From contig NZ_CP068595.1 of assembly GCF_016772475.1 (NCBI RefSeq), positions 558,001 to 622,000 on the forward strand: a stretch of DNA of 64,000 nt, in the 5' to 3' direction. The DNA comes from Paenibacillus sonchi (lineage in GTDB: Bacteria > Bacillota > Bacilli > Paenibacillales > Paenibacillaceae). Below are positions 1 through 56,485 of the stretch, one piece after another (the first letter of the stretch is position 1; each line of letters opens with the position of its first letter). The position numbers were made by a program, and so were the translations under genes. The notes below the pieces were generated by a model that was not told where the DNA came from, did no database searches, and was given only the letters and a program-made list of their open reading frames with translations.

Positions 1-200
1 GTGCCACTCCGAGGCTTCATCCGCATGCAGCAAAAAATAAATGGAAGAGGCCGAGGCTCTTGGCCCGGAATAGCTCTCCCCAGCGTTTCCTGCGGGATTT
101 CAAAGGGAGCGTTCCACAGCCGTTTGTACCAGCCGCCTTCCACGTGGGGCTGCAGCCCCAGCGCTTCTACCAGCGGCGAAATTTCTTTTTGCGTCACCAT
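1..200 (-). CDS. DUF985 / cupin_5-like protein, 5' part only, frameshifted
   Basis: The start ATG lies at 198-200, behind an AAGGAGA ribosome-binding site, and the reading frame runs off the left edge of the window. The first ~45 residues carry the family signature LGLQPHVEGGWYKR. After ETLG the correct continuation (SYSGPRASASSIYFLL, then EASEWH) lies in a different frame. The switch is at the CCCC run at 78-81, where one more C would restore a single frame. Cupin_5 proteins are small one-domain proteins of uncertain enzymatic role. Family assignment rests on these two signatures. The break is probably a sequencing error, because three other genes in this window show the same kind of break. 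Confidence 0.6.
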   Translation of the reverse strand, partial: MVTQKEISPLVEALGLQPHVEGGWYKRLWNAPFEIPQETLGRAIPGQEPRPLPFIFCCMRMKPRSG

Positions 201-212
201 ATTCTCTCCTTA

Positions 213-286
213 AAGTTTTGCGCAGCAAAACTGGCATCGTAAGCATAAGCTTAAGTTATGCGCGGCAAAACTGCTTCGTAAGCATT
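213..286. repeat. two degenerate ~34-bp direct repeats between genes
   Basis: Two copies of a unit of the form AAGTTNTGCGCNGCAAAACT followed by a CATCGTAAGCAT-like end lie at about 213-247 and 252-286, with a period near 40 bp. A further partial TTTTGC echo follows at ~295. Each copy contains a short hairpin (GTTTTGC and GCAAAAC). They fill the gap between the DUF985 gene and the SPFH gene. No gene is visible here. Confidence 0.5.
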
Positions 287-342
287 ACGCTTCGTTTTGC
301 TTTTACTTTAACGGAATGTGCCGCAATTGTAAAATCTCCGGC

Positions 343-1278
343 TTACTTGCTTTCCTTGCTGGCCTTGAACACCTCGGCCATGGCGCCCAGCGTGCCCAGT
401 GTTTCAACAGCGCTGGTAGGCAAGAACACCTTGTTGGCCGCGCCTTTGGAGATTTCGGTCAGCGCGTCAAAGGATTGATAGGCCAGCACCCGTTCATCCA
501 GCCCCGCACTGCCGATCAGTTCAATCCGCGATTTCTCGGCTTCCGCTACCGCCTGGATCGCTTTGGCCTGCCCCAGCGCTTCCAGCTCCTGTGCCTGCCG
601 CAAGCCTTCCGCCTGCCGGATGCGCGCTTCCTTGTCACCTTCCGCCTTCAGGATCTTGCTCTGCTTGTCACCTTCAGCACGCAGGATCATATCCTGCTTG
701 GCGGCTTCCGCCTCCAGCACAATCGCACGCTTGCTGCGCTCGGCCTTCATCTGCTTATCCATCGCTTCCTGGATATCAAGCGGCGGCTTGATATCGATCA
801 CCTCAACGCGCTCGATCCGCACGCCCCACTTCTCCGTCGCCTCATCCAGCGCCAGGCGGATATCCGAGGAAATCTTTTCCCGGCCGGACAAGGTTTCATC
901 CAGCTCCAGCTTACCGATAATCTGCCGCATGGTGGCTGTGGAGATGTTGCGCACCCCGTATACATAATCGGAAATGCCGTAGGTTGCTTCTTCCGGTCCC
1001 ACTACCTGATAGAAAATAATCGTATCAATCTGCACCTGCACATTATCCTTGGTAATCACGGTTTGCGGCGGCACATTAGCCTGCTGTATCCGCAAATCAT
1101 GATACGTGCGCACCTGGTCGATGATCGGAATGAGAACATTCAGACCGGGTGTGAGCAGCCGGTGGAATTTACCGAGACGCTCTACAACCCCTACCCGCTG
1201 CTGCGGTACGATTTTGACCGTCAGTGCTACAAATACGACAACAACAAAAACGATAATCCCAATAATAGCCCATTGCAT
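343..1278 (-). CDS. SPFH/stomatin-like (slipin, QmcA-type) membrane protein
   Basis: This is a stomatin-family membrane scaffold of about 311 residues. One N-terminal membrane helix (residues ~3-25, IIGIIVFVVVVFVALTV) is followed by the SPFH/band-7 domain beginning VPQQRVGVVERLGKF. A long Glu/Ala/Lys/Arg-rich coiled coil (EAEAAKQDMILRAEGDKQ) follows at residues ~190-250. The ATG at 1278 is preferred: it overlaps the NfeD stop as ATGA and has a GGGGGGA ribosome-binding site upstream, while an in-frame ATG at 1296 has none. The NfeD partner directly upstream is the classic arrangement for these proteins, which organise membrane microdomains or membrane-protein turnover. The exact function here is unknown. 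Confidence 0.85.
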   Translation of the reverse strand: MQWAIIGIIVFVVVVFVALTVKIVPQQRVGVVERLGKFHRLLTPGLNVLIPIIDQVRTYHDLRIQQANVPPQTVITKDNVQVQIDTIIFYQVVGPEEATYGISDYVYGVRNISTATMRQIIGKLELDETLSGREKISSDIRLALDEATEKWGVRIERVEVIDIKPPLDIQEAMDKQMKAERSKRAIVLEAEAAKQDMILRAEGDKQSKILKAEGDKEARIRQAEGLRQAQELEALGQAKAIQAVAEAEKSRIELIGSAGLDERVLAYQSFDALTEISKGAANKVFLPTSAVETLGTLGAMAEVFKASKESK

Positions 1279-1712
1279 CAATACATATCCCCCCATCGTA
1301 CTACTTCAATAATTGTAGAGCTTCTTCCGACCACTTTGACCACTTCATCCTTGCCCAGCGACTCTATCGAGGTTGCACTCCAAGTATCGCCGCCTACCTT
1401 AACCTGGCCATACCGTCCCGGCTCTATCGGTTCTACGACCAACCCCTGCCTGCCGACAATATCCGTCCCTGTATCCTGGAACCCCCTCGAACTGCGGAAT
1501 CTCGCCACAAGCGGCTTTGAGAAAATCGTCAACACCAGGGCAACCAGCGAGCCTGCCAAAACCTGGAGCAGTATCGCATCCGGCAGCAAAAGCGAAACCA
1601 GACAAGCCGCCAGAGCACCAATGCTTAACCAGAGCAGATAAAACGTAAGCGTCATCATTTCAACGACAAACAGGACACCGGCTGCAATTAACCAAAACAC
1701 CCAGACCACCAT
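1278..1712 (-). CDS. NfeD-like membrane protein with OB-fold C-terminus
   Basis: The protein has about 144 residues. The N-terminal half has two to three hydrophobic helices (VVWVFWLIAAGVLFVVEMM, then LLWLSIGALAACLVSLLLP and LLQVLAGSLVALVLTIF). The C-terminal half (GRQGLVVEPIEPGRYGQVKV through IIEVVRW) is the NfeD OB-fold pattern. NfeD proteins work with SPFH partners, and the stop of this gene overlaps the start of the stomatin-like gene by four bases. The start is uncertain: ATG at 1712 behind GGTGG, or the in-frame GTG at 1727. No clear promoter was resolved upstream. Confidence 0.85.
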   Translation of the reverse strand: MVVWVFWLIAAGVLFVVEMMTLTFYLLWLSIGALAACLVSLLLPDAILLQVLAGSLVALVLTIFSKPLVARFRSSRGFQDTGTDIVGRQGLVVEPIEPGRYGQVKVGGDTWSATSIESLGKDEVVKVVGRSSTIIEVVRWGDMY

Positions 1713-1872
1713 CGGTGAACCCACCACCTTCCGCTATATACTACTATAACGAAAAAAACGGCATGACGTTGCATAAGTTTTTTGGCAATCCGGATACAGT
1801 GCGGCATAGCCATTATATTTCAGCGGATGGAAGGTTATGAACGACACAATCAACCTGCTTCATAAAAATCAA

Positions 1873-1916
1873 CAAAAAAAGCTCGCAGAGAAGGCATCGC
1901 CTCATGCTGCAAGCTT
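1873..1916 (-). terminator. intrinsic terminator of the amino-sugar operon
   Basis: Read on the minus strand, AAGCTTGCAG and CTGCGAGCTT pair around a ~20-base loop and are followed by seven Ts. It sits just beyond the stop of the FAD oxidoreductase gene at 1934. A near-twin, including the loop motif with GGCATCGC, terminates the first chitinase gene at 10895-10938. Confidence 0.75.
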
Positions 1917-1933
1917 GTCCGCTATCCTATCGG

Positions 1934-3523
1934 CTATTGCATCTCAAGTTCGGCTTCACTCCAGTGAAGCTGAACGCCATGCTCTGTTAAGAGCTGCTGA
2001 TACGCCTTTAGATGGGCTTCAGACTCGTACACCTCGCGGGGCAGGACACGCCGCGTGCAGGCGTAGGAGGCAAGAAGTCCGGCAGCCTCACCGATGTTCC
2101 ATTCGGTCGGATGCAAGCGGTAGCACCCGTTCGCAATCTGGGTCATCGAAATATTTTTGCAGGCCGGGAGCAGATTCGTGACACGTACAGGAATCAGCGA
2201 GCCCAGCGGAATTTCATACGGGTGATTCGGAATGTAGAATGTGCGCTGGGACACTGTGGTGGGATGAAGATCCAGATGATAGCTGCCGACACCCACACTG
2301 TCTTCATAGCGCATGGGGCCTAACGCGCCGCGCAGCTCTTTGCTTACATCCTGCTCGGTAACGGTGTAGAGCCCCCGGATTCGTCTTGCTTCGCGGATGT
2401 AGGGGGACTTCGCAAGCCCGTCCTCTGTCCCGAGCACGTCCCCGCGCAACCTCACACCCGGGTATCCCTTCCCGCCGTCCAGGCGCGGAGCCTCCGTCTG
2501 AAGCCAGTAGACGAGGGACAGCGTCAGCTGTCTGGCCCCTTTCAGATGCGACTCCCGTTCTCCAGGAGATACTCCGATCAACGGACCGGCGTAATAATCG
2601 TTCAGCGCCCAGTTCAGCAGGGTTACTTCGCCGTCATTCAGCGGCTGGCTCCAGATGGAAGGATCGACAATCCGCCGGTAATCCCAGAGCGGCATAATTC
2701 CCTCTTCATTGGGAAACATGGTGAACTGCTTCAGCTTGGTTGTGTCACTTGCATCGGAGGCGTACCAGCTGAGGATCGGGTACCGGGAAAAGGAGGGAAC
2801 ATACTGGCGCCAATAGTCATAGTCCTCAGGGCAGTCTATCGTGAAATCGCCGTCCGGCACATAATCGACGGCAGCCACATGCGTAATCGACTGCATATCG
2901 AGCGGGTCCGCTTGTTCCAGCGCATGCGGCTCCCCGGTCTCATTCCGTGATTCGGCACCACACACATGCTCTGCACCGGCGAGCGGCAGCAAATCCCCGC
3001 ATTCCGTTGCATCCAGGTAATATGCGCCATGCAGCTTGATTTCAGCCCCGCTCTCCTTATGCAGGACCGTCACCTCCGTCACTTCATCTCCCGCTGTCTC
3101 CGCATGGACAGGCACCGTATGATACAGCACTTTAATCCGCCCCGTATTTATATAGGGAGCCAGCATTTCGTACAGAACGCTTAACGCAACCTTCGGCTCA
3201 TGGGCAAGCCGGCTGACCCAGCCGTTTCCCGGATTGAGCAGCGGATTGTTCCTGGCAGACGCCGTAAGCGGATAATTCCGCCGGTAATAATCTCTCACCC
3301 TGTTGCGGAACTCCCGGTAAGATGCCGTGCAGCCGGAGCTCTCGATCCAGCGGTGCTCATCCGGCGGAACCGCCTGGGAGGTAAGCTGGCCGCCGAGCCA
3401 ATCGGTTTCCTCGGTCATAATTACGCGCATCCCCGCTTTGGCTGCGGCGAGAGCCGCCGCCGTTCCGCCAAGCCCGCCGCCGATGATGATCACATCGCTT
3501 GGTCTTATGCGTTCAAAGGTCAT
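1934..3523 (-). CDS. FAD-dependent oxidoreductase (FAD_oxidored family)
   Basis: This ~529-residue flavoprotein starts with a Rossmann dinucleotide-binding motif (VIIIGGGLGGTAAALAAAKA, GGGLGG at residues 15-20), followed by an acidic strand end and WLGGQLTSQAVPPDEH, typical of the FAD_oxidored family. The C-terminal part (ACKNISMTQIANGCYRLHPTEWNIGEAAG) is the usual second FAD-contact region. ATG at 3523 is chosen because AAGGAGG lies seven bases upstream and it overlaps the ROK-kinase stop as ATGA. It is the last gene of the amino-sugar operon. Relatives often sit in carbohydrate clusters, but their substrates are mostly undefined, so an oxidised sugar substrate is only inferred. Confidence 0.85.
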   Translation of the reverse strand: MTFERIRPSDVIIIGGGLGGTAAALAAAKAGMRVIMTEETDWLGGQLTSQAVPPDEHRWIESSGCTASYREFRNRVRDYYRRNYPLTASARNNPLLNPGNGWVSRLAHEPKVALSVLYEMLAPYINTGRIKVLYHTVPVHAETAGDEVTEVTVLHKESGAEIKLHGAYYLDATECGDLLPLAGAEHVCGAESRNETGEPHALEQADPLDMQSITHVAAVDYVPDGDFTIDCPEDYDYWRQYVPSFSRYPILSWYASDASDTTKLKQFTMFPNEEGIMPLWDYRRIVDPSIWSQPLNDGEVTLLNWALNDYYAGPLIGVSPGERESHLKGARQLTLSLVYWLQTEAPRLDGGKGYPGVRLRGDVLGTEDGLAKSPYIREARRIRGLYTVTEQDVSKELRGALGPMRYEDSVGVGSYHLDLHPTTVSQRTFYIPNHPYEIPLGSLIPVRVTNLLPACKNISMTQIANGCYRLHPTEWNIGEAAGLLASYACTRRVLPREVYESEAHLKAYQQLLTEHGVQLHWSEAELEMQ

Positions 3524-4452
3524 GCTGTGTCCTCCTTCCTGGAGCCGGCCGGCAGCTGCCCGAAGCGTTCCAGCACGAGCTTGGCCGCCCCAAAGCAACC
3601 GGCCCGGTTCCCGAGTTCAGCCGCCGCAAGGAGCTCTGATAGACCTTCATCCTTCAGCTTGTTCTTCAGCAGCGGCCACCATATTTCCCGTTCATGGATA
3701 ACCCCTCCGCCAATGATGATGCGTGCCGGATCAAATGTGACGCTGATATTGCTGAGCACAACCGCCAAATCTGCTGCGAAGCGTTCCAGCACCCGCAATG
3801 CGCCCGAATCCCCCGCCCGCGCATCGGCCATAAGCTCTGATCCATGTCCATAGGTCCGGCCTGTCAGCTCCAGTCCGAGCCGCAGCAGGGCGGAACCCGA
3901 GACATACTGCTCCACACAGCCCTGCTTGCCGCAATTGCAGGGGAGGCCGCCGGGAACCAGAACGCTGTGTCCGAATTCCCCGCCGTTCCAATGGATGCCG
4001 CGGCCAAGAGTACCGTGTACCATATAAGCCCCGCCTACACCAGTGCCCAGCGTGAGCATAACCAGGTCCTGATGTCCGCGCCCTGCTCCCAGCCACGCTT
4101 CGCCCAGCAGCGCGGCATTGGCATCATTGTCGGCGGCAGCCTGAAGCCTGAAGGCACCGGCTGCCCACTCGGCAAGGTGAAGCCCCTGCCAGCCCTGCAG
4201 ATTATCGGTGGCATACACCACCTGTCCGGTATCCGTATTCACTCTCCCCGCCGAAGCTATGCCGATTGCCTGGACCAAGGGGCAGACCTCCAGCAGCTCG
4301 CGGACCAGCGCTTCCAGCTTGCCCAATATTGCTTCCCTGCCCTGTCGGGCATCCGTATCCCGCCTGGCTTCTGCCCACACTGCTCCAGCTTCGTCAATCA
4401 CCAGCCCTTTGACGGCCGTACCCCCGATATCCACTCCGATGACTTGCCTCAT
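3520..4452 (-). CDS. ROK-family sugar kinase (ManNAc kinase or glucokinase-like)
   Basis: The product of ~310 residues has the N-terminal phosphate-binding motif GVDIGGTAVKG, the ATP-site motif LTLGTGVGGAYM, the catalytic-loop region HWNGGEFGHSVL and the ROK zinc motif CNCGKQGCVEQYVSG. ROK proteins phosphorylate hexoses or N-acetylhexosamines, and those with a DNA-binding head are repressors. This one has no such head, so it is a kinase. The NanE gene in the same operon points to N-acetylmannosamine as substrate, giving ManNAc-6-P for NanE. That assignment rests on context. The start at 4452 is behind AAGGAGGGAGAGGG. Confidence 0.85.
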   Translation of the reverse strand: MRQVIGVDIGGTAVKGLVIDEAGAVWAEARRDTDARQGREAILGKLEALVRELLEVCPLVQAIGIASAGRVNTDTGQVVYATDNLQGWQGLHLAEWAAGAFRLQAAADNDANAALLGEAWLGAGRGHQDLVMLTLGTGVGGAYMVHGTLGRGIHWNGGEFGHSVLVPGGLPCNCGKQGCVEQYVSGSALLRLGLELTGRTYGHGSELMADARAGDSGALRVLERFAADLAVVLSNISVTFDPARIIIGGGVIHEREIWWPLLKNKLKDEGLSELLAAAELGNRAGCFGAAKLVLERFGQLPAGSRKEDTA

Positions 4453-4483
4453 CCCTCTCCCTCCTTTACCGCTATCGCTTCCC

Positions 4484-5311
4484 TTAATAGATTCGGTCGA
4501 TGACAGCCCTTGCCGTCAGTTCCTTCATGTTTTTCGTCTCATCCGCATGCCTCCGCTCCAGCCCTTTACAGATCAGGTCAATAATGAACAGCTGGGAGAT
4601 TTTCGCGCCCATGGACCCTCCTTCAAGAGGCGATTCCTTCCCGGCTGTCAGGAGAACGATATCTGCAATGGACGCTATGGGAGACTTGGCATAATTGGTC
4701 ATGGCAATAACCTTTGCCCCGTTCTGCTTCGCTTTCATCAGCATATCATTGGTATCCAGTGTGCTTCCGGAGACGCTGATGCCGAAGGCGACATCCCCTT
4801 CGCCCATCGTTACAGCCATCATCGATTGGATGTGGCTGTCCGCAATCGCCTCAACCCGTCTTCCAATCCGCAGGAAGCGGTTTTTGGCATCCAGTGCGGT
4901 AATGGCCGATGAGCCCACTCCAAAAAACTGCACGTGGCGCGCCGCATCGATTTGATTAATCGACTCCTCCAGCTGTTCACGGTCCAGCATACCGAGACTT
5001 GACTGGAGAATGTTGACCATCGACTCGTACAGAAGCGTCGCATCATCCGCGTCCCCGCCATCCCTTCCAGAAGGGGCCTGCTGCTTCGGCAGCCCTTGGG
5101 CAAGCATCAGCTTAAAATCCTGGTAGCCCTTGAATCCGATTTTGCGGCAGAAACGCATAACCGTCGTCTCTCCTGTACCGGCAAAATCCGCGAGCTCTGT
5201 TACAGAAAGGTAGATCAGGTTATCCGGGTGCTCAAGAACACATTTGGCCACCTTCTGCTCTGATTTGGTCATGGAGGGATAATACGTATTAATCCGGTCT
5301 GTCATTTCCAT
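4484..5311 (-). CDS. MurR/RpiR-family transcriptional regulator
   Basis: About 275 residues. The N-terminal HTH_6 domain (TKSEQKVAKCVLEHPDNLIYLSV to GETTVMRFCRKIGFKGYQDFK, residues ~12-80) is followed by a SIS sugar-phosphate-binding domain (residues ~125-260, FFGVGSSAITALDAKNRFLR and GISVSGSTLDTNDML). Such proteins sense phosphosugars through the SIS domain. This one lies between nanE and the kinase gene, so the likely effector is an amino-sugar 6-phosphate. Its start overlaps the nanE stop by 23 bases, consistent with translational coupling. Whether it represses or activates the operon cannot be read from the sequence. Confidence 0.9.
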   Translation of the reverse strand: MEMTDRINTYYPSMTKSEQKVAKCVLEHPDNLIYLSVTELADFAGTGETTVMRFCRKIGFKGYQDFKLMLAQGLPKQQAPSGRDGGDADDATLLYESMVNILQSSLGMLDREQLEESINQIDAARHVQFFGVGSSAITALDAKNRFLRIGRRVEAIADSHIQSMMAVTMGEGDVAFGISVSGSTLDTNDMLMKAKQNGAKVIAMTNYAKSPIASIADIVLLTAGKESPLEGGSMGAKISQLFIIDLICKGLERRHADETKNMKELTARAVIDRIY

Positions 5312-6026
5312 TGTTCATTTCCACCCTTCTTATTGCTGCCGCAAACCGCCCTGTAATCAACTGGGGTCTTGTTATGGCTGAACCCACCACTGCTGCATAC
5401 GCACCCAAATCCATGGCCTTCCGGACCTGATCCGGCTCAATCATCCTGCCTTCAGCGATAACAGGGATCGATAAACGCTCAACCGCTTTTTGCAGCAGTT
5501 CAAAGTTAGGGCCCTCCTGTTGAAGGGAGTACGGTGTATAACCCGAGAGTGTTGTTGAGACGCAGCTGACCCCTAGGGCTTCAGCATGGATAGCCTCCTC
5601 CAGAATCGAAATATCGGCCATTGAAGCCGTTCCGTTCCGGTTCAAAAAGGCGACCATCTGCTCCAGCGTGCAGTTCTCCGGTCTCTTTTGCCCAGTCGCA
5701 TCCAACGCGATCATATCGGCTCCTGCTTCAAGCAGTTCTTCTATTTCTCTTAGCGTCGGGGTGATGTACACCGCCGAATCCGGATAATCCCTCTTTACAA
5801 TGCCGATAACAGGCAGTGAAACCGCGCTCTTGATGGCGCGGACATCCGCGGCACCATTAGCCCGGATGCCAACCGCGCCCCCTTCCTCAGCAGCCGCTGC
5901 CATACGTGCCATCATTTCGGCACCATACAGCGGTTCACCCGGAAGTGCCTGACAGGATACGATCAGTCCGTGATGCAGCTTCTGTATTATTGTATTCAGG
6001 GTCCCCACCCTCTCTCTTGTAGTCAA
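5289..6026 (-). CDS. nanE: N-acetylmannosamine-6-phosphate 2-epimerase
   Basis: NanE converts ManNAc-6-P to GlcNAc-6-P. The sequence shows the family hallmarks LIVSCQALPGEPLYG near the N-terminus, GIRANGAADVRAIK, LPVIGIVKRDYP, ADMIALDAT and PVIAEGRM, all on one TIM-barrel of about 230 residues. The N-terminus is ~17 residues longer than usual. The first possible start is TTG at 6026 behind AGAAGGAAAAG, and GTG at 6008 is an alternative. No NanA lyase, NagA or NagB is present in the window. The GlcNAc-6-P made here must therefore feed pathways encoded elsewhere. Confidence 0.92.
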   Translation of the reverse strand: MTTRERVGTLNTIIQKLHHGLIVSCQALPGEPLYGAEMMARMAAAAEEGGAVGIRANGAADVRAIKSAVSLPVIGIVKRDYPDSAVYITPTLREIEELLEAGADMIALDATGQKRPENCTLEQMVAFLNRNGTASMADISILEEAIHAEALGVSCVSTTLSGYTPYSLQQEGPNFELLQKAVERLSIPVIAEGRMIEPDQVRKAMDLGAYAAVVGSAITRPQLITGRFAAAIRRVEMNNGNDRPD

Positions 6027-6035
6027 CTTTTCCTT

Positions 6036-7571
6036 CTATTCTCCAGAAGGCTCAAAACGGACGGACAATCCCACCTCAAACATCCGGTTCCACGGCATGT
6101 AGCAGTCTGTAATCTCTACCCTTCCCTCCGGGCCGTCAATTCTAACAGCCAACTCCTGACGCAGCCGTTGTTCAACCATGGACGCTACACTCCCGCGCTG
6201 CCCGTCGAGCAGATATTTGCCGAAACCCATGTCCTGGACCGGACCATCGCTGAGTTCGCCCCGGACAACCGAGCAGTAGCAGACATCTTCGGCATAACGG
6301 AGGCCGAGAAAATCCAAATGCTCCTGTGTACGTCCGTAATGCAGGTATATCATTGCCTGAGAAATGACTGTACCGAGCGTGTTCGAGCTTGTATTCCAGC
6401 CCGCATATCCGGCCAGCTTAAACAAAATATTTTTCTCCCGCAGCATCTTCACCAGCTTCCGGTCCCCGCCATTGGCGTATCCGACATCGGCTACGGCGAT
6501 TGGCTTTCCCTTATGCTTCAAGATATAATCCCCGTATTCCACAATTTCCATCAGGTTCCGGTACACATCATAGCTGAAAAAGGAACCCTGCTGCGATGCC
6601 GCTTCGATCATGGTCTCACCCGGCGTATTGACCAGAAGCACGAGATCGGCCTCCCCGGCACTGGAGGCAATCAGGCCGCCCGCGGCTGTAATCTGGTACT
6701 TCAGCGTCTCATAGAAAAAACGGTCCTCGAACAGCGGGGTGACAAACGCCCCCTGTACCGATGACAGCCGCGGATAAATAAGCGGCACTGTTCCTGTGGC
6801 CTTATTGATCATCCGTGCCAGCAGGGTGCACCCCACCTCATCGGCACCAGGATACATATAAGCTCTAAGCTCCAGGTCAAGCTCAGTAATCCGTGAACGT
6901 ACCTTCTGCTGGTCTTTGGCCGTATGTCCAAAGGGAGCCGAGTCATCCTGCGGAAAGATCATGAACCCGATAATGCCTTCCTTCACCAGCTCCAGCACCA
7001 GCTTGTTCGCTTCGATATTGATGCTCCGCCGGCCCAGATAATCATCCAGTATTTGCCGGGGCAGGCGGTCTTCAATTTCTGCAAGCTCCTGAAGTTCCTC
7101 GTCCGAGGCTGCTCCCAGCTCCTTGCGGTGGCTGATGAAGCCTTTGCGAAAAATTTCCCGTCCCCAGTCGGCATAGTAATCCGGTTCTTCGTCCGAAATC
7201 GAGTACTGCGGGCAGCGCATAATGAGCTGAAAGGCATAAATGACCAGCTTCGGGTGCCTGCGTTTGAAGGCGCGCAGCTTATCCAGCCTTGCAGCCAGCT
7301 CCTCCAGCTTCAAGCTATGCAATCTGGAAGGAATAATCCCTCCATATAGCAGCGTATCCAAAGCAACGACGGCTCCATCCGCCTGACAGCAGGCTTCCTC
7401 GAACCATGTCCACAACCCGTCTACATCTCCGGGACGTTTTTTCAGCCCCATCAGCTGCATCGGGGGACGCAGCACCTCAAATTCTGTTCCCCTGGCCAAA
7501 AGAGGGGGGAACCCGTAATTGCAGGGCCGCTCATCCAGCGGCACAAAAGCGATTGTGTATGACTTCGACAT
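6036..7571 (-). CDS. DUF4127 family protein
   Basis: A soluble protein of 511 residues with the DUF4127 signature start (IAFVPLDERPCNYGFP) and conserved blocks ALDTLLYGGIIPSRLH, IMRCPQYSISDEEPDYY, FPQDDSAPFGHTAKDQQ and VADVGYANGGDRKL. The family has no established activity. The many conserved Asp, His and Arg residues suggest a metal-dependent or carbohydrate-active enzyme, but this is inference. It lies between the sugar permeases and nanE, with only nine bases before the nanE TTG start, so it is probably part of the same catabolic route. No signal peptide is visible. Confidence 0.85.
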   Translation of the reverse strand: MSKSYTIAFVPLDERPCNYGFPPLLARGTEFEVLRPPMQLMGLKKRPGDVDGLWTWFEEACCQADGAVVALDTLLYGGIIPSRLHSLKLEELAARLDKLRAFKRRHPKLVIYAFQLIMRCPQYSISDEEPDYYADWGREIFRKGFISHRKELGAASDEELQELAEIEDRLPRQILDDYLGRRSINIEANKLVLELVKEGIIGFMIFPQDDSAPFGHTAKDQQKVRSRITELDLELRAYMYPGADEVGCTLLARMINKATGTVPLIYPRLSSVQGAFVTPLFEDRFFYETLKYQITAAGGLIASSAGEADLVLLVNTPGETMIEAASQQGSFFSYDVYRNLMEIVEYGDYILKHKGKPIAVADVGYANGGDRKLVKMLREKNILFKLAGYAGWNTSSNTLGTVISQAMIYLHYGRTQEHLDFLGLRYAEDVCYCSVVRGELSDGPVQDMGFGKYLLDGQRGSVASMVEQRLRQELAVRIDGPEGRVEITDCYMPWNRMFEVGLSVRFEPSGE

Positions 7572-22678: not shown

Positions 22679-23412
22679 CTAGGGACGCACGCCCGTAAAG
22701 ATCATCCGCCGCGAATTCTCCGCCTCATACTCATCTTCCTCATAGCTGCCGTGCACGGCCTCCAGCTGAAGGCCCGCAGCGGCAATCATCTCGCGGAATT
22801 TCTCCAGCGGATACAGCTTGACCCGCTCATGATATATGCGGGGGCACCCCCTGACTTTGAGGTCAGGATGATGTCCTTCTTGACATAGCCATCCTCAATC
22901 CGCCGCGACTCATCAATCAGGTTGTCCCCGTCCTCACGGACTGAGTGCGGAACCAGATGACGGATCACATGGGCCGGATTCAAAAAATCAACAATGAATT
23001 TGCCGCCCGGCACCAGCATACGGTGAATTTCCCGCAGCACCTTCACCTGCTCCTCATCCTCTTCAAAATATCCAAACGAAGTAAACAAATTCACCACAGC
23101 CGCAAAACCGCCTTCAAGCGGCAGCCTGCGCATATCCGAACGTATCCAGGTGACCGCTTCTGCCCCGGCCTGCGCCCGTGCTTCACGGAGCAGCGCATCC
23201 GACAAATCCACACCCGTAACCTCATAGCCCGCTTCCGCCAGCGCCAGGGAATGGCGGCCCATGCCGCAGCATAAATCCAGCACTTTGGCGCCTTGCGGCA
23301 GCTCCAGCCAGCCGATCATTTTCTCCACCTCGCGCCGTGCCCCGCCGAAATCCCTGTGCCTGTATACAATTAGATAATCCTCGCCAAAGCTCTCCTCGTA
23401 CCACTCGCCCAT
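22679..23412 (-). CDS. class I SAM-dependent methyltransferase, frameshifted near the 3' end
   Basis: A small-molecule methyltransferase with motif I VLDLCCGMGRHSLALAEAG, an acidic strand end VTGVDLSDALL and the post-I region GGFAAVVNLFTSFGYF. The frame breaks after KSGGAP at the GGGGG run 22840-22844. Restoring one base continues it as RIYHERVKLYPLEKFREM and ends EAENSRRMIFTGVRP at a TAG at 22679-22681, for ~244 residues in total. Without repair the protein ends in ~15 unrelated residues. The start at 23412 is behind GGGAGGAGAAGGAAC. The break is probably a homopolymer error. Confidence 0.82.
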
Positions 23413-23587
23413 GTTCCTTCTCCTCCCGCAGCAGCGCCTGCACAAGCTTTTTCTATGTATGCTAATGCGTGTATTCAAACCTTAACTCTCCCAAATCTGC
23501 GGCTATGCTCCTGCTTTTCCTCCTAATATCGGGGCTTGAATACACCGCCTAATGTAACGCAATTGTACCGCCTTTTAGGGGTAAACT

Positions 23588-30676: not shown

Positions 30677-31979
30677 GGTGCCCAGCCTCCCTCTGCATTA
30701 ACAAATTCCCTGCTTTGTTGCTCCACTCCATGGCGCCTCTGTATCCTACGGAGACAGACATATATGCGCCCAGCTCATTCCATACCGGGAACCCCGCCGG
30801 CATAAATGCAGCAGCAATCCGCTGCGCTCCGGCGATACCGTGCGAATTGCTGATCCACAGATCAGCCCCCTTGCCCAGCACTTCGGCATCATCCAGATCC
30901 CCTATCCACACCTCGCGCTCCATCCCTGCAACCAGCGGTGTTTCATAGGAGGCAATCAGCGCCTTCTGCTCCACACCCAGCTCCTCAAGCCAACCCGAGA
31001 CCGAGCAGAGATGATCCGGCTCCAGTGCAGCGATGGCAGACATGCCCGCAAACTGGAAATGCGCATCAAGCATGCTGTCGAGCAGATTCTCGCGCTGCCA
31101 GCAATAACGCAGCGGTACCGGCTCTCCGCTGATCTGATGCAGAAAATGCAGCAGCTCGTCGGAAGCCTTCAGCCCCATCGCATGCGTAAATACCTTATAG
31201 GGCGTACCCAGCGCATTATGAAGTCTTCTTGCCGGACGCTCCATGCTGCCGCCGATGGCGATCGTAAGCCCGGACTGCAGGCTCTGCAGCATGGAATCCA
31301 GCGGCACACCGCCCCGGGTCAGCGGGGAGAACCCGGTCAGCAAATGTCCTGACAAGGAGGTCGAGATATCCGGCAGCGCGATCACCTCGAACCCGAAGGA
31401 AGAAATCATCTCCTTCAGTTCCATCACATCGGCAGGTGTCAAAAAAGATCCGGGCAGCAGCGTAATCTGCCGGGTATTCACACTTCTCGAACCCCGGTGG
31501 CCCACCTGCTGGATCATTTCATCGATCATCGACTCCACCGCTGCGCTGAAGCCCGATTCCAGCGAGCCCCGGAAGTCCGGCAGCACCACGGAAAAGGCAA
31601 GCCCCCCGCGCATATTCCGCTCCCGCTTGTAGGACTTGAGCATACTCTGGTAATCCACCCCGGCGACATCGGTCAGTTCCGTTCCGATGATCCCGATGAT
31701 ATCGGGGCGGTGCTTGCTAAGCACCAGATTAAGAGCTTCCTCCAGATTGCGGTTGGCATCGAAGATCACGTCCATCTCCTGCAGGGCGGAGGTCTGTACT
31801 GCAATCGGCTCACGGAAATGCCGGGTCAGCAGCGCCTTGGGAAAAGCGGAACAGCCCTGTGAGCCGTGCAGCAGAGGCATGGCACGGTAGCAGCCCTGCA
31901 GGGCCAGCACGGCGCCGAGCGACTGGCCGGTCTTGATCGGATTGACCGAAGCCGGCTTCCTTCTTCGGTTAACGGTCAT
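30651..31979 (-). CDS. nifN: nitrogenase FeMo-cofactor biosynthesis protein NifN
   Basis: Beta subunit of the NifEN scaffold on which FeMo-co precursor matures. About 442 residues with the oxidoreductase/nitrogenase component 1 fold. The N-terminal block NPIKTGQSLGAVLALQGCYRA is followed by LLHGSQGCSAFPKALLTRHFREP, carrying Cys ligands equivalent to the NifK P-cluster region. DIIGIIGTELTDVAGVD replaces the Cys pair seen in NifK, as is normal for NifN. Its start overlaps the nifE stop by 11 bases. Confidence 0.95.
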   Translation of the reverse strand: MTVNRRRKPASVNPIKTGQSLGAVLALQGCYRAMPLLHGSQGCSAFPKALLTRHFREPIAVQTSALQEMDVIFDANRNLEEALNLVLSKHRPDIIGIIGTELTDVAGVDYQSMLKSYKRERNMRGGLAFSVVLPDFRGSLESGFSAAVESMIDEMIQQVGHRGSRSVNTRQITLLPGSFLTPADVMELKEMISSFGFEVIALPDISTSLSGHLLTGFSPLTRGGVPLDSMLQSLQSGLTIAIGGSMERPARRLHNALGTPYKVFTHAMGLKASDELLHFLHQISGEPVPLRYCWQRENLLDSMLDAHFQFAGMSAIAALEPDHLCSVSGWLEELGVEQKALIASYETPLVAGMEREVWIGDLDDAEVLGKGADLWISNSHGIAGAQRIAAAFMPAGFPVWNELGAYMSVSVGYRGAMEWSNKAGNLLMQREAGHRESSVRHR

Positions 31980-33332
31980 AGGGAGGCGCCTCCTTATCCC
32001 ACGGAGCCGGGCTGGCAGCCAGCTTCCAGATCGGATTGGCCAGCGAATAGGTCAGTTCCTTGGCGAGCCGCAGAAGTCCTTCATAGCCCGCATACGCTTT
32101 ATGCCGCTCCTGGTTGATATCAATGAACGGAATCTGTTCCTTCATCGCAACATACATATTGCGGCCGCCCGCGATCATCATATCGGCTTTGCGTTCCCGG
32201 ACCGTCTTGAGGATGCGGCCGGCACCGCCCTCGGGAATATATTCGGTATCGTCACCTACACGGTCAGCGATCCGCCGGACATCATCCTCTGTGCTTTTGT
32301 TCGTTCCGACGCCCACCACCTGAACGCCCAGCTCCTTCAGTGCGGAAATGACCGACCAGCTCTTGACGCCGCCGGTATAGAGCACCGCTTTCTTTCCTTT
32401 CAGAATTTTGCGGTAAGGACGCAGCTCCTGGCTGAGCCGGGCCTCTTCACGCTCGGTTAGCCGGTCTACCCGGCGCTCCATATCACGGTCATTCATCAGA
32501 TAGGCCATTTGCCGCAGCGAATAAGTCGTCTCCTTGGCTCCGTAAAAAGAGCCTTCGAAATAGGGGATGCCGTATCTGGACTCCATTTCCCTGGCGAGTC
32601 CAAGTAAGGCCCGGCTGCAGACAACCATGTTCACCTTGGCGCGGTGCGCCCAGGTGACCTCCTTGTAGCGGGCATCTCCTGTTATCCGTGAGGTTACTGA
32701 AATACCGGCACTGTTCATCAGCTTCTCGATATCCCACATCTCGCCGGCGATATTGTATTCGCCGATAAGATTGATCCCCATGGGCATATCGGGGAGGGCT
32801 CCCCTGTACCAATGACATACTGGAGCAGCGCATCTCCGGCCAGCCGGTTGCCGAGATTTTTGCTTCCGACAAATCCGGGGCTGTTCACCGGGATGACCGG
32901 TATACCGAGCCGCTCCGCAGCCGTCTTGCAGACGGCATCCATGTCTTCACCGGTCAGGGCAGTCACACAGGTTGAATATACAAATATTGCCGGAGGCGCA
33001 AAGCGCCCGGCAATATAGTCAATACTGTCCTTCAGTTTCTTTTCTCCGCCAAAAATAATATCGGAATCGGTCAGATCCGTAGCAAAGCCATATTGGGACA
33101 GGGAGGGCCCGCTGGACAGGGTCCCCCTGCTCTCCCAGCTGTTCCCGGCACAGGCAATCGGACCATGGACAAGATGCGCAGCGTCCATAATCGGCAGCAG
33201 TGTAATTTGGGCTCCGTCGAAGGAGCAGCCTCCAGCCGCTTCGCCCGGTTTGGGCCGTGGACAGGGCCGTACTTTCGGGGCCAGGCTCCCGCAAGCCCCG
33301 GAATCAAATTCGTCTTTTCGAACAGGGTCCAT
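31969..33332 (-). CDS. nifE: nitrogenase FeMo-cofactor scaffold NifE, frameshifted
   Basis: Alpha subunit of the NifEN scaffold. The 5' part carries [34 protein letters not shown] and [16 protein letters not shown]. The 3' part carries [40 protein letters not shown] and [19 protein letters not shown]. The two lie in different frames, joining at the GGGG run 32791-32794 (minus CCCC, after TGEPSP). One extra base gives a single ~454-residue protein of normal NifE length. ATG 33332 is chosen, 11 bases behind AAGGAG; an in-frame TTG lies at 33374. The two halves are both well conserved, so a sequencing error is more likely than decay, but as read the gene is broken. Confidence 0.9.
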
Positions 33333-49808: not shown

Positions 49809-49865
49809 AGGTTATGGCGCTCCATTCACTAAGTAGTTTTTTGTTAACCAGTAAACTATATTGGC

Positions 49866-49894
49866 ATCTTATCATTATTGATAATGATTATCAA
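49866..49894 (-). promoter_or_regulatory. promoter of the MarR-nitroreductase operon
   Basis: On the minus strand TTGATA (49894-49889) and TAAGAT (49871-49866) are 17 bases apart, ~60 bases before the ATG at 49808. A Fur box covers the -35. Confidence 0.8.
49879..49893. promoter_or_regulatory. Fur box, perfect 7-1-7 palindrome
   Basis: TGATAATGATTATCA is a perfect 7-1-7 inverted repeat matching the Bacillus Fur consensus. It covers the -35 box of the MarR-operon promoter and lies ~85 bases upstream of the divergent PadR promoter, so it should repress the former. Confidence 0.85.
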
Positions 49895-49975
49895 CTATAA
49901 AGTTTCTTTTCGAAGAAGGGTTCTGATTCCTGCTGCCCGGCTGTGCAACCCAACAAAGTATTGTATTTAAAATAT

Positions 49976-50008
49976 TACCTTGACAGTCAAGGTACTGTGT
50001 CGTATTAT
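49976..50008 (+). promoter_or_regulatory. PadR-operon promoter with overlapping operator
   Basis: A perfect 9-1-9 inverted repeat TACCTTGACAGTCAAGGTA (49976-49994) contains the -35 TTGACA (49980-49985). The -10 TATTAT follows at 50003-50008 after 17 bases. It is a likely autoregulatory operator for the PadR protein encoded 20 bases downstream. Confidence 0.85.
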
Positions 50009-50028
50009 ACAGATGCGGAGGTGATGAT

Positions 50029-50358
50029 ATGAGCGAGAATAAAATTACATCCGACCTGCTGCGCGGACATACCGATACGATGATTTTACGGCTCTTATCC
50101 GAAGCTGACCGCTACGGGTACGAGATCGTCAAGCTGATTGCCGAGCGTTCGGACGGTGAGTATGAATTAAAGGAAGCCACGATGTACTCCAGCGTCCGGC
50201 GGCTTGAGGCGGACGGTGATATCGAATGGTATTGGGGCGATGAATCTCAGGGTGGACGGCGTAAATATTTTAGGATTACCGAAAAGGGTAAGGCGGCTTA
50301 TGCCCGCAACAAAAGCAACTGGGAATACGCAAAGCGCGTGCTCGAAAACTTATTATAG
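50029..50358 (+). CDS. PadR-family transcriptional repressor
   Basis: About 109 residues. The PadR winged helix shows LLRGHTDTMILRLLSEADRYGYEIVKLI, ATMYSSVRRLEADGDIEWYWG and the wing GGRRKYFRITEKG. A short C-terminal helix (NKSNWEYAKRVLENLL) for dimerisation follows. Small PadR proteins repress neighbouring transporter operons and release on binding a drug-like ligand. The ATG is behind GGAGGTGAT. It heads a four-gene operon. Confidence 0.93.
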   Translation: MSENKITSDLLRGHTDTMILRLLSEADRYGYEIVKLIAERSDGEYELKEATMYSSVRRLEADGDIEWYWGDESQGGRRKYFRITEKGKAAYARNKSNWEYAKRVLENLL

Positions 50359-50372
50359 GGAGAGTTGATATT

Positions 50373-51236
50373 ATGTACGAGAAATTGACCAGCTATTTGA
50401 ATGGCGTTTTTGCACCCTACGATGGGGTGAAAAGCGCCACCGAACTAAAGGCCGATCTGCTCTCCGATTTGCAGGAGCGCTTTCGTGAACTCAAAGCCGA
50501 GGGCAAGGACGATGAAACAGCGTTTGAGATGACCATCAGCAGCATCGGAGATATTGAGCAGACGGTACAGGAGGTCGCCAATCTCTCCCGTTCCCTGGAA
50601 CGGCAGGTGGTGACAAACTTCAGCTCGGGTAACCTGTCAAAGAGCGACTTCGCAGGTGTTACCGCCCACAAGGGAAAATTTGAAGGGAGCGCGTTGCTTG
50701 GCTCCGACTTTTCCGGTGCGGACCTGACGGGCAGCTCGTTCAAGGCCAGCGATGTGCGTGAAGCCCATTTTGACGGCGCAAATCTGACAGACTGCAACTT
50801 CTTTGCTCTTGATCTGGCGGGTGCAAGCTTCCGTCAATCCATCCTTGTGCGTACCAATTTCAGCAAGTCGTGGCTCGCCGGGGCCAAATTCATCGATGTA
50901 AAGCTGACCGACGTCAACCTAACCATGTGCGACCTGAGCAAAACAATCTTTGAGCACTGTATTTTCGACGGCGTGGACTTTAAGTCTTCCAACCTGTCGG
51001 GTCTGTGTCTGGACGGGCTGACCTTTCTCGGCGTCAAGTTTGACAAGGCAGCGCTGAACGAGGTTTCGTTTAAAGGTGCAACGCTGAAAAATGTGTCTTT
51101 CCCAACGTCTAACCTGTCCAAGAAGTATTACCGCGCCATCAAGACCGTCTGCTTCGACGGCGCGATGATGGATAAACTGACCTATGCCGCACTCAAGGGC
51201 ATGGAAGCAGACTTGTCAAAAGTTACAGTTATTTAA
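50373..51236 (+). CDS. HAAS-domain protein fused to pentapeptide repeats
   Basis: About 287 residues. The N-terminal ~70 residues (LTSYLNGVFAPYDGVKSATE to AFEMTISSIGDIEQTVQEV) resemble the HAAS/DUF1700 domain that usually partners PadR regulators. From ~95 to 270 there is a pentapeptide-repeat solenoid with A(D/N)LXX units: FSGADLTGSSF, FDGANLTDCNF, LAGASFRQSI, FDGVDFKSSNLSG. Such solenoids can mimic DNA or act as scaffolds. It starts 14 bases after padR and precedes an ABC exporter. The function is unknown; a sensor or protection role is inferred. Confidence 0.85.
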   Translation: MYEKLTSYLNGVFAPYDGVKSATELKADLLSDLQERFRELKAEGKDDETAFEMTISSIGDIEQTVQEVANLSRSLERQVVTNFSSGNLSKSDFAGVTAHKGKFEGSALLGSDFSGADLTGSSFKASDVREAHFDGANLTDCNFFALDLAGASFRQSILVRTNFSKSWLAGAKFIDVKLTDVNLTMCDLSKTIFEHCIFDGVDFKSSNLSGLCLDGLTFLGVKFDKAALNEVSFKGATLKNVSFPTSNLSKKYYRAIKTVCFDGAMMDKLTYAALKGMEADLSKVTVI

Positions 51237-51251
51237 GGGAGGGGAAAGAAG

Positions 51252-52013
51252 ATGCAAACCAAATCAATTCAAGTAAAAGGACTGCAAAAGTCCTACAAGC
51301 AGCTTCATGTCCTGAAGGGTGTAGACTTCGAGGTGGAAAAGGGCAGTATTTTCGCCCTGCTCGGCTCCAACGGCGCGGGCAAGACGACGGTTGTCAAAAT
51401 CCTCTCTACGCTGCTCAAACCGGACAGCGGAACCGTCAGCGTAAACGGATTCGACGTTGCAGCGAGGCCTGGCGATGTGCGGCAGTCGATCAGTCTGACC
51501 GGGCAGTTTGCCGCCGTGGATGAGGTTTTGACCGGGCGGGAAAACCTGATCATGATTGCCAAGCTGCGGCATCTTAATCATCCGCTTCAAGTTGCGGACG
51601 ATTTGCTGAAACGCTTCGGCTTAACGGACGCTGCCGACCGTAAGGCATCTGCTTATTCGGGCGGTATGCGCCGCAGGCTTGATATCGCCATGAGCCTTGT
51701 AGGAAAACCGCAGCTTATTTTCCTCGATGAGCCAACCACCGGGCTTGACCCCGAGGCGCGCATTGAGGCTTGGAAGATTGTAAAGGAGCTTGCGGACGGC
51801 GGCACTACGGTATTCCTGACCACGCAGTATTTAGAGGAAGCCGAGCAGCTTGCCGACCGGATTGCCATTCTGCACGAGGGCAGGATTATCGCCAGCGGCA
51901 CGCTCGCAGAACTGAAAAAGCTGTTTCCATCCGCAAAGGTGGAGTATGTTGAAAAACAACCGACACTGGAAGAAATTTTCCTCGCAATCATCGGCAAAAA
52001 GGAGGCCGTTTAA
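51252..52013 (+). CDS. ABC exporter ATP-binding protein, DrrA type
   Basis: About 253 residues. Walker A LGSNGAGKTTVVKIL, signature YSGGMRRRLDIAMSL, Walker B LIFLDEPTTGLD and switch LTTQYLEEAEQLADR, the typical DrrA-like pattern. The C-terminal ~40 residues (FPSAKVEYVEKQPTLEEIFLAI) are the DrrA extension. It pairs with the membrane protein encoded directly after it, whose ATG follows its stop without a gap. Confidence 0.93.
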   Translation: MQTKSIQVKGLQKSYKQLHVLKGVDFEVEKGSIFALLGSNGAGKTTVVKILSTLLKPDSGTVSVNGFDVAARPGDVRQSISLTGQFAAVDEVLTGRENLIMIAKLRHLNHPLQVADDLLKRFGLTDAADRKASAYSGGMRRRLDIAMSLVGKPQLIFLDEPTTGLDPEARIEAWKIVKELADGGTTVFLTTQYLEEAEQLADRIAILHEGRIIASGTLAELKKLFPSAKVEYVEKQPTLEEIFLAIIGKKEAV

Positions 52014-52781
52014 ATGGAAACAACAAAAAACCATTTTTTCAGCGACATGAGTGTGATGCTTGGACGTTCCATGCGCCATATTTTGCGAAGCATGGACACC
52101 ATCGTCACGGTCTGCATCACACCGATTGCGTTGATGCTGCTGTTCGTCTATGTGCTCGGCGGAGCCATCCAAACCGATACGGATAACTATGTGAACTACC
52201 TGTTGCCCGGTATCCTGCTGATTGCGATTGCAAGCGGTATATCCTATACGGCTTACCGCCTGTTTTTGGATAAGCAACGGGGCATCATTGAACGGTTCCA
52301 CTCCATGCCGATTGCGCGTTCCACCGTGCTGTGGGGGCATGTGCTGACCTCGGTGGTATCCAACGTCATTTCTGTTGTCGTCATTATTCTCGTAGCGCTC
52401 ATTATGGGCTTTCGCTCGTCGGCGGGGATACTGTCCTGGCTTGCCGTGGCCGGTATACTCGTGCTGTTTACGCTGGCTTTGACCTGGGTCGCGGCGATTG
52501 CCGGACTATCCGCAAAATCGGTGGAAGGTGCAAGCGCGTTTTCCTATCCGCTTATCTTCCTGCCGTTTATCAGCTCGGCATTTGTGCCGACCGAGTCGAT
52601 GCCGTCTGCCGTCCGTATTTTTGCCGAAAACCAGCCGGTGACCTCAATCGTAGAAGCCATTCGTGCGCTGCTGTCAGGTCAGCCGGTGGGCAATGATATA
52701 TGGGTCGCTCTCGCCTGGTGCGTCGGGATTTCACTCGTAGCCTATTGCTTTGCTATGAGAGTGTATAAAAAGCGGGTGTGA
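52014..52781 (+). CDS. ABC-2 type membrane protein, DrrB type
   Basis: About 255 residues, six predicted helices. It starts with a short amphipathic segment (MSVMLGRSMRHILRSMDTIV) and shows the ABC-2 signature DKQRGIIERFHSMPIARSTVLWG. LIFLPFISSAFVPTESMPSAVR is the conserved later segment, and the end ENQPVTSIVEAIRALLSGQPVGND is the family hallmark. With the DrrA-type ATPase it should form a drug or lipid exporter. The gene cluster may be acquired as a unit, since it is self-contained with its own PadR regulator. Confidence 0.92.
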   Translation: METTKNHFFSDMSVMLGRSMRHILRSMDTIVTVCITPIALMLLFVYVLGGAIQTDTDNYVNYLLPGILLIAIASGISYTAYRLFLDKQRGIIERFHSMPIARSTVLWGHVLTSVVSNVISVVVIILVALIMGFRSSAGILSWLAVAGILVLFTLALTWVAAIAGLSAKSVEGASAFSYPLIFLPFISSAFVPTESMPSAVRIFAENQPVTSIVEAIRALLSGQPVGNDIWVALAWCVGISLVAYCFAMRVYKKRV

Positions 52782-52880
52782 TTAACAGACAGGTACACCA
52801 TAGGTTGGATGGATGCGTCGCAGTGCCGCCGCGTGATGCATCCCGTCTTGCCCTTCCTTCTCGAAGCAAAGGCTAACCGG

Positions 52881-53978
52881 CTACATGTATTTACCGTAGT
52901 CCTTAATTGTCACTTTTACTCGGCACTCCACTTCAACCCCGGGATATACTTTTCTCCAATCGAGACTTTTCCATGCCTTATAGGTAAGGCTGTTTCTTAC
53001 ATATTGTCCGATGCCAATGCTGTCCACATTGTTCTGCTGCAGCTGCCTTACCATTTCCTGAGCCTTGTCCCTGATATATTCGGCGACATCTCCTTCCAAT
53101 TCATGACGTTTTTTACTCTGTGAAAGATCCCCATGTCCGGTATATTCAAGCACCGAGCCTTGGATGGAATTAGCAATAATAAACTTGAAGCGATTGTCTC
53201 CGAGATGCTGCACACTCACCTTCCGCTTATTCAGCATAGAGCTGAACATGACCACCACTTTTCTGCCATTTCGTTCACCTAATTTAGCAGACAATTCTCC
53301 TTGTTTGATGTCCCCCCGGAGCAGGGCAAAGATAATTCCATCTTTGGCCGGAATTTTCATCACGAAGCGGTCATCCTGAAAAAAAGCAATCCCGGAAATG
53401 CCGGCTCTGTTCCCTTCATCCTTTACAATCGGAGCAATCGGATCAATTCCATCATCGTGATATTCCCTGGTGAACGCATAAAGTGTAGTTGGTGGAATGG
53501 CGTCGGAAGAGCTCTCTTTTTCCAGCAAATGATTAACATATGTTCCTGTATCCTTATTGGGCTTAAAGGGTTTGGACAGCAATTTACCTGCATCTCCATC
53601 CACTATGGCCACTTGGACCCCAAGAGCAATAGATGGATCGCGTAAAAGCGTATCAATATGATCCGCAAGCCCTTCCTTGGCCAGCTCTGATCCGAACAGA
53701 ACACTTCTTAACTGGCCGCTGACCAGGCGAAGATCAATTTGTTTCGATAACCGCACCCTCGCTTCTTTGAGGCTGTCGGTTACTGCTGTCAGCAGCAGTC
53801 TGCGTTCCGACGATTCTGGATCAATAACCGGAATAGAGTAGGTCGTTTTCAGCTGATGATTCTCCGCCAGGTCGTAACTGGCGGTTTGCACCAGTCCCAG
53901 CTTCTCAAGAATCCTCTGATCGCTACTGCAGCCGGTCAACAGCAGCATCAGGAGTACAGCAGACAGCCGCCTATACAC
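52881..53978 (-). CDS. Ger(x)C-family spore germination lipoprotein
   Basis: C subunit of a germinant receptor. About 365 residues with a lipoprotein signal (LSAVLLMLLLTGCSSDQ) and the GerAC fold: RSVLFGSELAKEGLADHIDTLLRDPSIALGVQVAIVDG in the first half and the C-terminal domain ending VYPGVEVECRVKVTIKDYGKYM. It overlaps the B-subunit gene by eight bases. The receptor sits in the spore inner membrane with the A and B subunits, and its germinant is unknown. Confidence 0.9.
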   Translation of the reverse strand: MYRRLSAVLLMLLLTGCSSDQRILEKLGLVQTASYDLAENHQLKTTYSIPVIDPESSERRLLLTAVTDSLKEARVRLSKQIDLRLVSGQLRSVLFGSELAKEGLADHIDTLLRDPSIALGVQVAIVDGDAGKLLSKPFKPNKDTGTYVNHLLEKESSSDAIPPTTLYAFTREYHDDGIDPIAPIVKDEGNRAGISGIAFFQDDRFVMKIPAKDGIIFALLRGDIKQGELSAKLGERNGRKVVVMFSSMLNKRKVSVQHLGDNRFKFIIANSIQGSVLEYTGHGDLSQSKKRHELEGDVAEYIRDKAQEMVRQLQQNNVDSIGIGQYVRNSLTYKAWKSLDWRKVYPGVEVECRVKVTIKDYGKYM

Positions 53979-55050
53979 GGGATACCCTCCTTCCTTGAAG
54001 GAGCAGCAGCGCTATCAATAGTACAGGCAGACCAAAAGCAATCCCGGTGACAGCGTATCCCAGATGGAGAATCCAGTTATTCACCTGATCCAAGGTCTTC
54101 GGGATATAAGAGATGCAGTAGGAGATGACCGTCAACAGAAACGCCATGACCGGAATTTTTAACTTGGGAATCATTCTTCTCATTGCCTCCATAGCCCCCC
54201 ACCAATACATTGCCGCTGTGATCAGTATCAAAAAGAGGAAAAACCCGTAAAGCATATTTTCCAGACGCTCAACGAATGGAAACTGGATATAGGCCAGCAT
54301 ATCCAATAGCGGAAACAGCAGCTTTTTCAACTGTCCAAAGCTGAAAAAACCAAAACATATAAGGGACAAACAAATGTAAACCAGAGATAAAAAAGCATTT
54401 CCTGCATAAATGGCAGCCAGCGATTTTTTGCTTTTATCCATATAAGGAAACAGAAGGATAGATAACTCGTAGCCAAGGTAAGCAGAATATAGATCGAAGG
54501 CTCCTTTGATCTGGTCATGGCCTCCCTGCAAAATAAAGGGTGTCAGGCGGACCCAATTGAAGGAAGGGAGAAACCAGAGAAAGATAAAGTACATCCAGAA
54601 TGTCATCCAAAAGAAGAAGGTTGCCACTTTGGATATCGTAAAGATCCCTTTAATAAGCAGCAGAAAAAGCAGGACATCTAGAGCCATCTTGAATACCATC
54701 GGATTGGTCGTTGGGAAAGCAAGCATTTGAAATAAAAGCACATATTTTTTACCGATCATACAGCCGAAGAGCAGCCAGACAGAACACAGTCCAAGATAGA
54801 CAGGATACAGTACAGCTTTGGGGACGGACCGCTCCATGATTTCAAAAACCGACTTTCCGCCTCCCAGCCGGTGCACCAGCGTGATCAAATAAATATTGAA
54901 AGACGTCAGCAGCAGACCCGGCAGCAGAACCAGCCATCCGTTTGTGCCGAAATAATCAGCCAGCTGGCGCGGCAGGGTGAAGACAATGATCCCGATTTGG
55001 CTCATATACACCAGGATGCCAACATGAAAGGGGCTGAGCTTCTCCATCAT
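53971..55050 (-). CDS. GerAB/ArcD/ProY-family spore germination permease
   Basis: B subunit of the germinant receptor, ~359 residues, about ten membrane helices. The start HVGILVYMSQIGIIVFTLPRQLADYFGTNGWL is the GerAB signature, and KYVLLFQMLAFPTTNPM and LFPLLDMLAYIQFPFVERLENM are family segments. It overlaps the C-subunit gene by eight bases and starts 14 bases after the A-subunit stop. Confidence 0.93.
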   Translation of the reverse strand: MMEKLSPFHVGILVYMSQIGIIVFTLPRQLADYFGTNGWLVLLPGLLLTSFNIYLITLVHRLGGGKSVFEIMERSVPKAVLYPVYLGLCSVWLLFGCMIGKKYVLLFQMLAFPTTNPMVFKMALDVLLFLLLIKGIFTISKVATFFFWMTFWMYFIFLWFLPSFNWVRLTPFILQGGHDQIKGAFDLYSAYLGYELSILLFPYMDKSKKSLAAIYAGNAFLSLVYICLSLICFGFFSFGQLKKLLFPLLDMLAYIQFPFVERLENMLYGFFLFLILITAAMYWWGAMEAMRRMIPKLKIPVMAFLLTVISYCISYIPKTLDQVNNWILHLGYAVTGIAFGLPVLLIALLLLQGRRVSRV

Positions 55051-55064
55051 AAAATTTCTGACGC

Positions 55065-56485
55065 CTACTTTCTTTTGATCTGCTTGATTGGATTAGGCGA
55101 TTGGGACTGGGAAGGCCTCCGGGTTAAAAAGGTGAACGGCGCACGGATAAAAATATCCTTCCAATCCCCTGGCGCCATCGGCGCAACCGGGATTAAATAA
55201 GAGGAACCCAGGCTTGTGAGGCTGGAAATATGCGTTACAATCAGGGCAACCCCCATGGCTATCCCTATATTTCCCCAGATACCAGCCAGTATGATAATGC
55301 CAAAGCGAACCAGCCGGATCGAGGCGCTCATCATATAGCTGGGAATTACAAAAGAGGCGATTGCAGAAGAGGCTACAGCAATAATCAGGACATTACTGGT
55401 CAACCCCGCCTGAACGGCAGCTTGTCCAATGACAATCCCCCCTACAATCCCGATGGTTTGCCCAATTTTGGTTGGAAGACGGGCGCCTGCTTCCCGCAGA
55501 AGCTCAATCATGGTTTCCATAAGCAGCGCCTCGTAAACCGGTGGAAAAGGCACTCTGTTCCGCGATTCAGCCAGTGTCCGAAGCAGTGCTTCGGGGATCA
55601 TTTCGTAATGAAAGGTAGTCACGGATACATAAAATGCTGTGAACGAAATCGTAATCAGCAAAGCGAGATATCTTAACAGCCGGAGTGCCGTTCCCAAAGC
55701 CCAGCGCTGATAGTAATCATCCGGTGAGGAGAAGAATTCAAAAAAGCGGAGGGTGCGGCAAATGCGGTCGGACTGTTGTCAATCAGTGTGATAATCCGGC
55801 CGGCTGTCAGCTTGGATACAGCCACATCGGGCCTTTCTGTAGTCAGAAATTGCGGAAAAACCGAATTAGGACGGTCCTCCAGAAACTGGGTCAGCATCCC
55901 CCCATCATTAACAGCATCTATTTCGATCCGTTTAATCCGTTTCTCCAGTTCCCCGACATATTTCATATTGGCGATATCTTTAATATAAAGGACATACACA
56001 CTGGTCTTGGTGATTTCTCCGACAGAATACTCCTTAATTTTCAGATGCGAGCTTTTGATTCTTTGGCGTATCAGCGAAATATTTGTCATGGCGCATTCCA
56101 CAAAAGCGTCATGGGGGCCGGAAATAATGGTTTCGGTTTCGGATTGCTGTACAGCCCGCGTTTTCGGGCCATAGATATCGAGCAAATAGACATTTTTTTC
56201 GTGAAAAATGGCGGCGCTGCCCGCCAGGATTCCCGCAACCACAGTTTTAGATTCTGTTACCCGCGTAAATTGTGATTGTTGGAATAACTGCTCCAACTCA
56301 TCAAGCTGAACCTGGGCAAAGGGCGCCAGAATCTCATCTGTAAACAGTTTTTGGTCCACTATGCTGGTGAAGTAGACAATATCAGTCCGTATTTCCGGAA
56401 AGGAGCGGAAGATCAAATCCGCACATTGGTCAAACTCATCAAGAATATGCCGCAGCATAGGAGCATTTTGTGGGTTGGCATCCAT
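55065..56485 (-). CDS. GerA-family germination receptor A subunit, frameshifted
   Basis: The N-terminal part is seen in ADLIFRSFPEIRTDIVYFTSIVD and IYGPKTRAVQQSETETIISGPHDAFVECAMTNISLIRQRI, the conserved NTD of GerA. The C-terminal membrane part (LRLLRYLALLITISFTAFYV and GGIVIGQAAVQAGLTSN) is in another frame. The switch lies at the run of six As, 55740-55745. A seventh base joins them as AFFEFFSSPDDYYQRWALGTALR, giving ~473 residues, the normal GerA length. The frame break is probably an assembly error. Confidence 0.87.

Follow-up and report, generated by a model that had tools for sequence, protein, structure and literature searches.

We analysed a window of 64,000 nucleotides (G000:C1:558001-622000) from the genome of Paenibacillus sonchi, an assembly of 7,782,254 bases in three contigs with a completeness of 100% and a contamination of 1.07%. 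Four genes of the window are broken by frameshifts as assembled. The features, in window coordinates, are as follows:

1..200, minus strand: 5' part of a DUF985/Cupin_5 gene, whose start codon is near 200 and which extends beyond the left window edge
78-81 (CCCC), minus strand: break in the DUF985/Cupin_5 gene, with one frame giving way to another at the run
22679..23412, minus strand: methyltransferase gene, with a break at GGGGG 22840-22844, where Paenibacillus jilunlii has six G
31969..33332, minus strand: nifE, with a break at GGGG 32791-32794 or the adjoining three-base run
55065..56485, minus strand: gerAA-type spore germination receptor gene (GerA family), with a break at AAAAAA 55740-55745, where P. 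jilunlii has seven A

The four genes were compared with their homologues in P. jilunlii, the nearest among 40 genomes searched, whose alignment covers 56,474 of the 64,000 window bases. The homologues are syntenic, with about 93% DNA identity; identity was 96% for nifE (compared with NZ_FNGM01000011.1), 93% for gerAA and 94% for the methyltransferase gene. The named closest relatives at nifE were Paenibacillus. A preliminary description of the window had placed the loss of frame at the listed homopolymers, and the breaks were verified at all four positions. For nifE, the frame does change at GGGG 32791-32794, but the lost base could come from CCCC or from the neighbouring CCC run (as read on the minus strand), and the exact site is not fixed; placement in CCCC yields Pro-Ser-Pro, as in P. 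jilunlii. The same description had held that one extra base restores each frame and had proposed comparison with a close relative. All four P. jilunlii genes are open across the site and carry one base more than the window genome. Their products belong to the Pfam families Cupin_5/DUF985 (PF06172; 151 aa in a single open frame), methyltransferase domain, nitrogenase component 1 type (NifE) and GerA.

Adding one base to the span gives proteins of 244 (methyltransferase), 454 (nifE) and 473 (gerAA) residues. These had been described as family-length, in agreement with GerAA of 473 aa in both P. jilunlii and Paenibacillus riograndensis (the latter with 95% identity to the window gerAA) and with NifE homologues that, among the matches listed, are mostly 450-465 aa long. 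Apart from the single-base change, the four genes showed no lesion. Compared with P. jilunlii, the window has 40 bases inserted upstream of the DUF985 gene (225-264), in sequence where a short motif recurs.

The nifE gene is split into two pieces lying in different frames, and no other gene of the nifE type was found in the genome. We considered whether a second nifE might render the loss harmless and rejected this, as none scored above the cut-off in this genome; the remaining matches to TIGR01283 score lower and are nitrogenase-type genes also present in P. jilunlii. Searching a plasmid collection with the nifE DNA returned distant matches only. According to PMC5632714, P. sonchi, into which the name P. 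riograndensis has been merged, includes the nitrogen-fixing strains X19-5 and SBR5 (the latter under the name P. riograndensis), which we counted in favour of consensus errors.

Since all four changes fall at mononucleotide runs, phase variation or programmed frameshifting at these runs was considered as an explanation. However, the runs are only 4-6 bases long, and in P. jilunlii each of the four genes is a single frame. Furthermore, the DNA of relatives shares no common run at the nifE and methyltransferase sites (the DUF985 and gerAA runs were compared with P. jilunlii alone), and gltX and rpoC show the same change. We regard this explanation as scarcely credible, the least probable of those considered.

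That four of four changes have the same sign is weak evidence alone (two-sided p = 0.125). A wider sample comprised five chromosomal sites compared with P. jilunlii (400-660 kb, 1.11-1.19, 2.42-2.52, 4.92-5.02 and 5.88-5.92 Mb; 467,051 aligned bases). In total, 34 stretches of the P. sonchi genome were taken; eight scattered ones had no matching P. jilunlii stretch and were left uncompared. Open reading frames (ORFs) were selected on length and on third-position bias rather than with a gene caller, and counts of indels and broken ORFs exclude events less than 90 bases from an ORF end.

The sample contained 66 isolated interior single-base indels in coding-like ORFs. The majority (48) break the P. 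sonchi genome by loss of a base, affecting 42 P. jilunlii ORFs, and two break it by gain. Ten look broken in P. jilunlii instead (eight with P. sonchi shorter, two with P. sonchi longer), and for six the broken side is ambiguous (four shorter, two longer). The 48 losses include the methyltransferase, nifE and gerAA events, leave out the DUF985 event, and include one at window position 23418, upstream of the likely start of the methyltransferase gene. They amount to approximately one detectable coding loss per 10 kb. A run of at least three bases remains at 43 of the 48 sites; runs of this kind make up 16.8% of bases.

Coding runs of at least four bases were one base shorter in P. sonchi 40 times and one longer twice (p = 4e-10), and shortening was commoner with longer runs. 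For G/C runs of 4, 5 and 6 bases, the fractions one base shorter were 8/934, 10/185 and 3/28, respectively; for A/T runs of 6, 7 and 8 bases, they were 5/162, 5/54 and 4/12. Each of the five chromosomal sites had run-bound losses of the same sign, with gltX, rpoC and valS among the genes affected, which supports the systematic undercalling put forward in the preliminary description.

Some observations run against undercalling, among them the two gains in P. sonchi, the ten events broken in P. jilunlii and the lack of an overall bias in non-coding runs of at least four bases (18 shorter versus 19 longer). Intergenic drift may hide the signal of undercalling in non-coding runs; PMC12007338 makes a like remark on its own intergenic calls. 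Non-coding A/T runs of at least seven and G/C runs of at least five bases taken together were shorter 15 times and longer twice, a split made after seeing the data. Among non-coding A/T runs of 4-6 bases at the five sites, two were shorter and 16 longer, the reverse of the coding trend and likewise counted against undercalling.

Within the window, no further simple frame breaks inside likely genes were seen in the part aligned with P. jilunlii. The remaining window indels lie upstream of likely starts, in intergenic sequence, or in overlapping ORFs taken as chance. One window ORF (614928-615311 in P. sonchi, 205720-206160 in P. jilunlii) contains five gaps, with both versions open. As a control, we compared P. 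jilunlii in the same way with 16 named nif loci, of which 14 (110,951 bases) could be aligned. Zero such events were found in these loci, which are more diverged from P. jilunlii than the P. sonchi genome is and thus not exactly matched; the identical test on the P. sonchi nif locus gave one event in 17,840 bases.

Counted by gene, 42 of 304 P. jilunlii ORFs, or about one in seven, were frame-broken in P. sonchi. This count includes two-base, multiple and inserted changes and one case (P. jilunlii 215648-216526) with a longer ORF in P. sonchi; it overlaps with, and differs from, the 42 ORFs that carry the 48 losses. In the mirror test, 18 of 328 P. sonchi ORFs met a shift in P. jilunlii, many of these being the same events seen via fragments. 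Substitutions in the broken ORFs fell at third codon positions in 780 of 1049 cases (74%) downstream of the breaks and in 749 of 1022 cases upstream.

These data bear on natural decay, in which the four genes would be pseudogenes of the lineage. In favour of decay, the assembly shows each gene broken, and cells in rich media can do without nifE and gerAA. However, only one class of change was found in the four genes, the broken genes, when pooled, keep their third-position bias, and essential genes carry the same change. Decay is thus extremely improbable. The earlier rejection of both decay and phase variation is borne out by the bias kept downstream of the breaks and by the essential genes hit.

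The genes gltX, rpoC and valS are essential. As assembled, the breaks fall at codon 54 in gltX (487 codons), codon 1041 in rpoC (1203 codons) and codon 735 in valS (912 codons). A living cell with these three genes broken should not survive, which argues for error and against mutation. The third-position bias downstream of the breaks and the control nif loci likewise help to tell error from mutation. A search for further copies, made for gltX, found no other match in the genome that reached the family cut-off. The essential-gene argument omits adk, rplA and truA, with breaks upstream of likely start codons, and rpsC, broken at codon 208 of 221. Also left out, on account of possible paralogues, were mreB and other housekeeping names. 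Outside the window, G000:C1:1428775-1429095 weakly matches the gltX family; its open frame has only 157 aa, against 584 and 609 aa for the frames with weak matches in P. jilunlii, and it is perhaps part of another split glutaminyl-tRNA-synthetase-like gene.

A true mutator, in which mismatch repair was lost and slippage shortened runs in the cell, would make the frameshifts real and recent. The mutL gene (G000:C1:5902825-5904925, outside the window) is broken twice as assembled, at codons 254 and 497 of 700; both breaks are losses of one base at a five-base run, the very kind of change under suspicion. Recent breaks would also keep their third-position bias, as observed, and Escherichia coli lacking mismatch repair likewise shows an indel rate that varies with run length (PMC8510543). 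Against a mutator, essential genes were not spared, losses outnumber gains 48 to 2, and mutS is open (951 aa). The E. coli mutators described there accumulated 30,061 substitutions versus 5324 small indels, a ratio that is not comparable here at 93% identity. We consider a true mutator very unlikely. About as improbable is a combination of the two, i.e., a genuine mutL-deficient line in which some non-essential frameshifts (perhaps nifE and gerAA) are real amid many assembly errors.

Judged from the sequence comparison, it is highly likely that the assembly's consensus is in error at the four frameshifts, with homopolymers counted one base short. This reading is favoured because the losses are of the same sign, run-bound and dependent on run length, essential genes are hit, third-position bias is kept, and the control nif loci show no such event. 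The window genes are very probably intact in the cell. The source would be a consensus of the long-read type that was not corrected with accurate reads. Extrapolated from the sampled rate, there would be several hundred such errors genome-wide. The four frameshifts are almost certainly an ordinary artefact without biological novelty.

The value of these results lies mainly in a caution to users of this genome. It is rated complete, yet about one in seven of the genes tested is frame-broken as assembled. Inferring the loss of nitrogen fixation, germination or mismatch repair from this assembly, or counting its pseudogenes, would mislead. It is also a clear example of essential genes telling error from decay.

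Errors of this kind are known from long-read bacterial assemblies. PMC12007338 (Kastor) describes nanopore assemblies whose errors are for the most part false deletions associated with homopolymers of 2-8 bases, with apparent pseudogenes falling from 23.3% before to 5.6% after correction, and PMC8011154 (Homopolish) describes homopolymer errors that fragment genes in long-read bacterial assemblies. The likeness to the Kastor assemblies lies in single-base false deletions at homopolymers that split genes, as in the broken ORFs counted here. The difference is that A/T runs dominate in the Kastor example, whereas here coding G/C runs are affected at shorter lengths. Slippage in the mismatch-repair-deficient lines of PMC8510543 resembles the present case in its dependence on run length. 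A living mutator differs in that it should keep its essential genes, whereas here three of them are broken as assembled.
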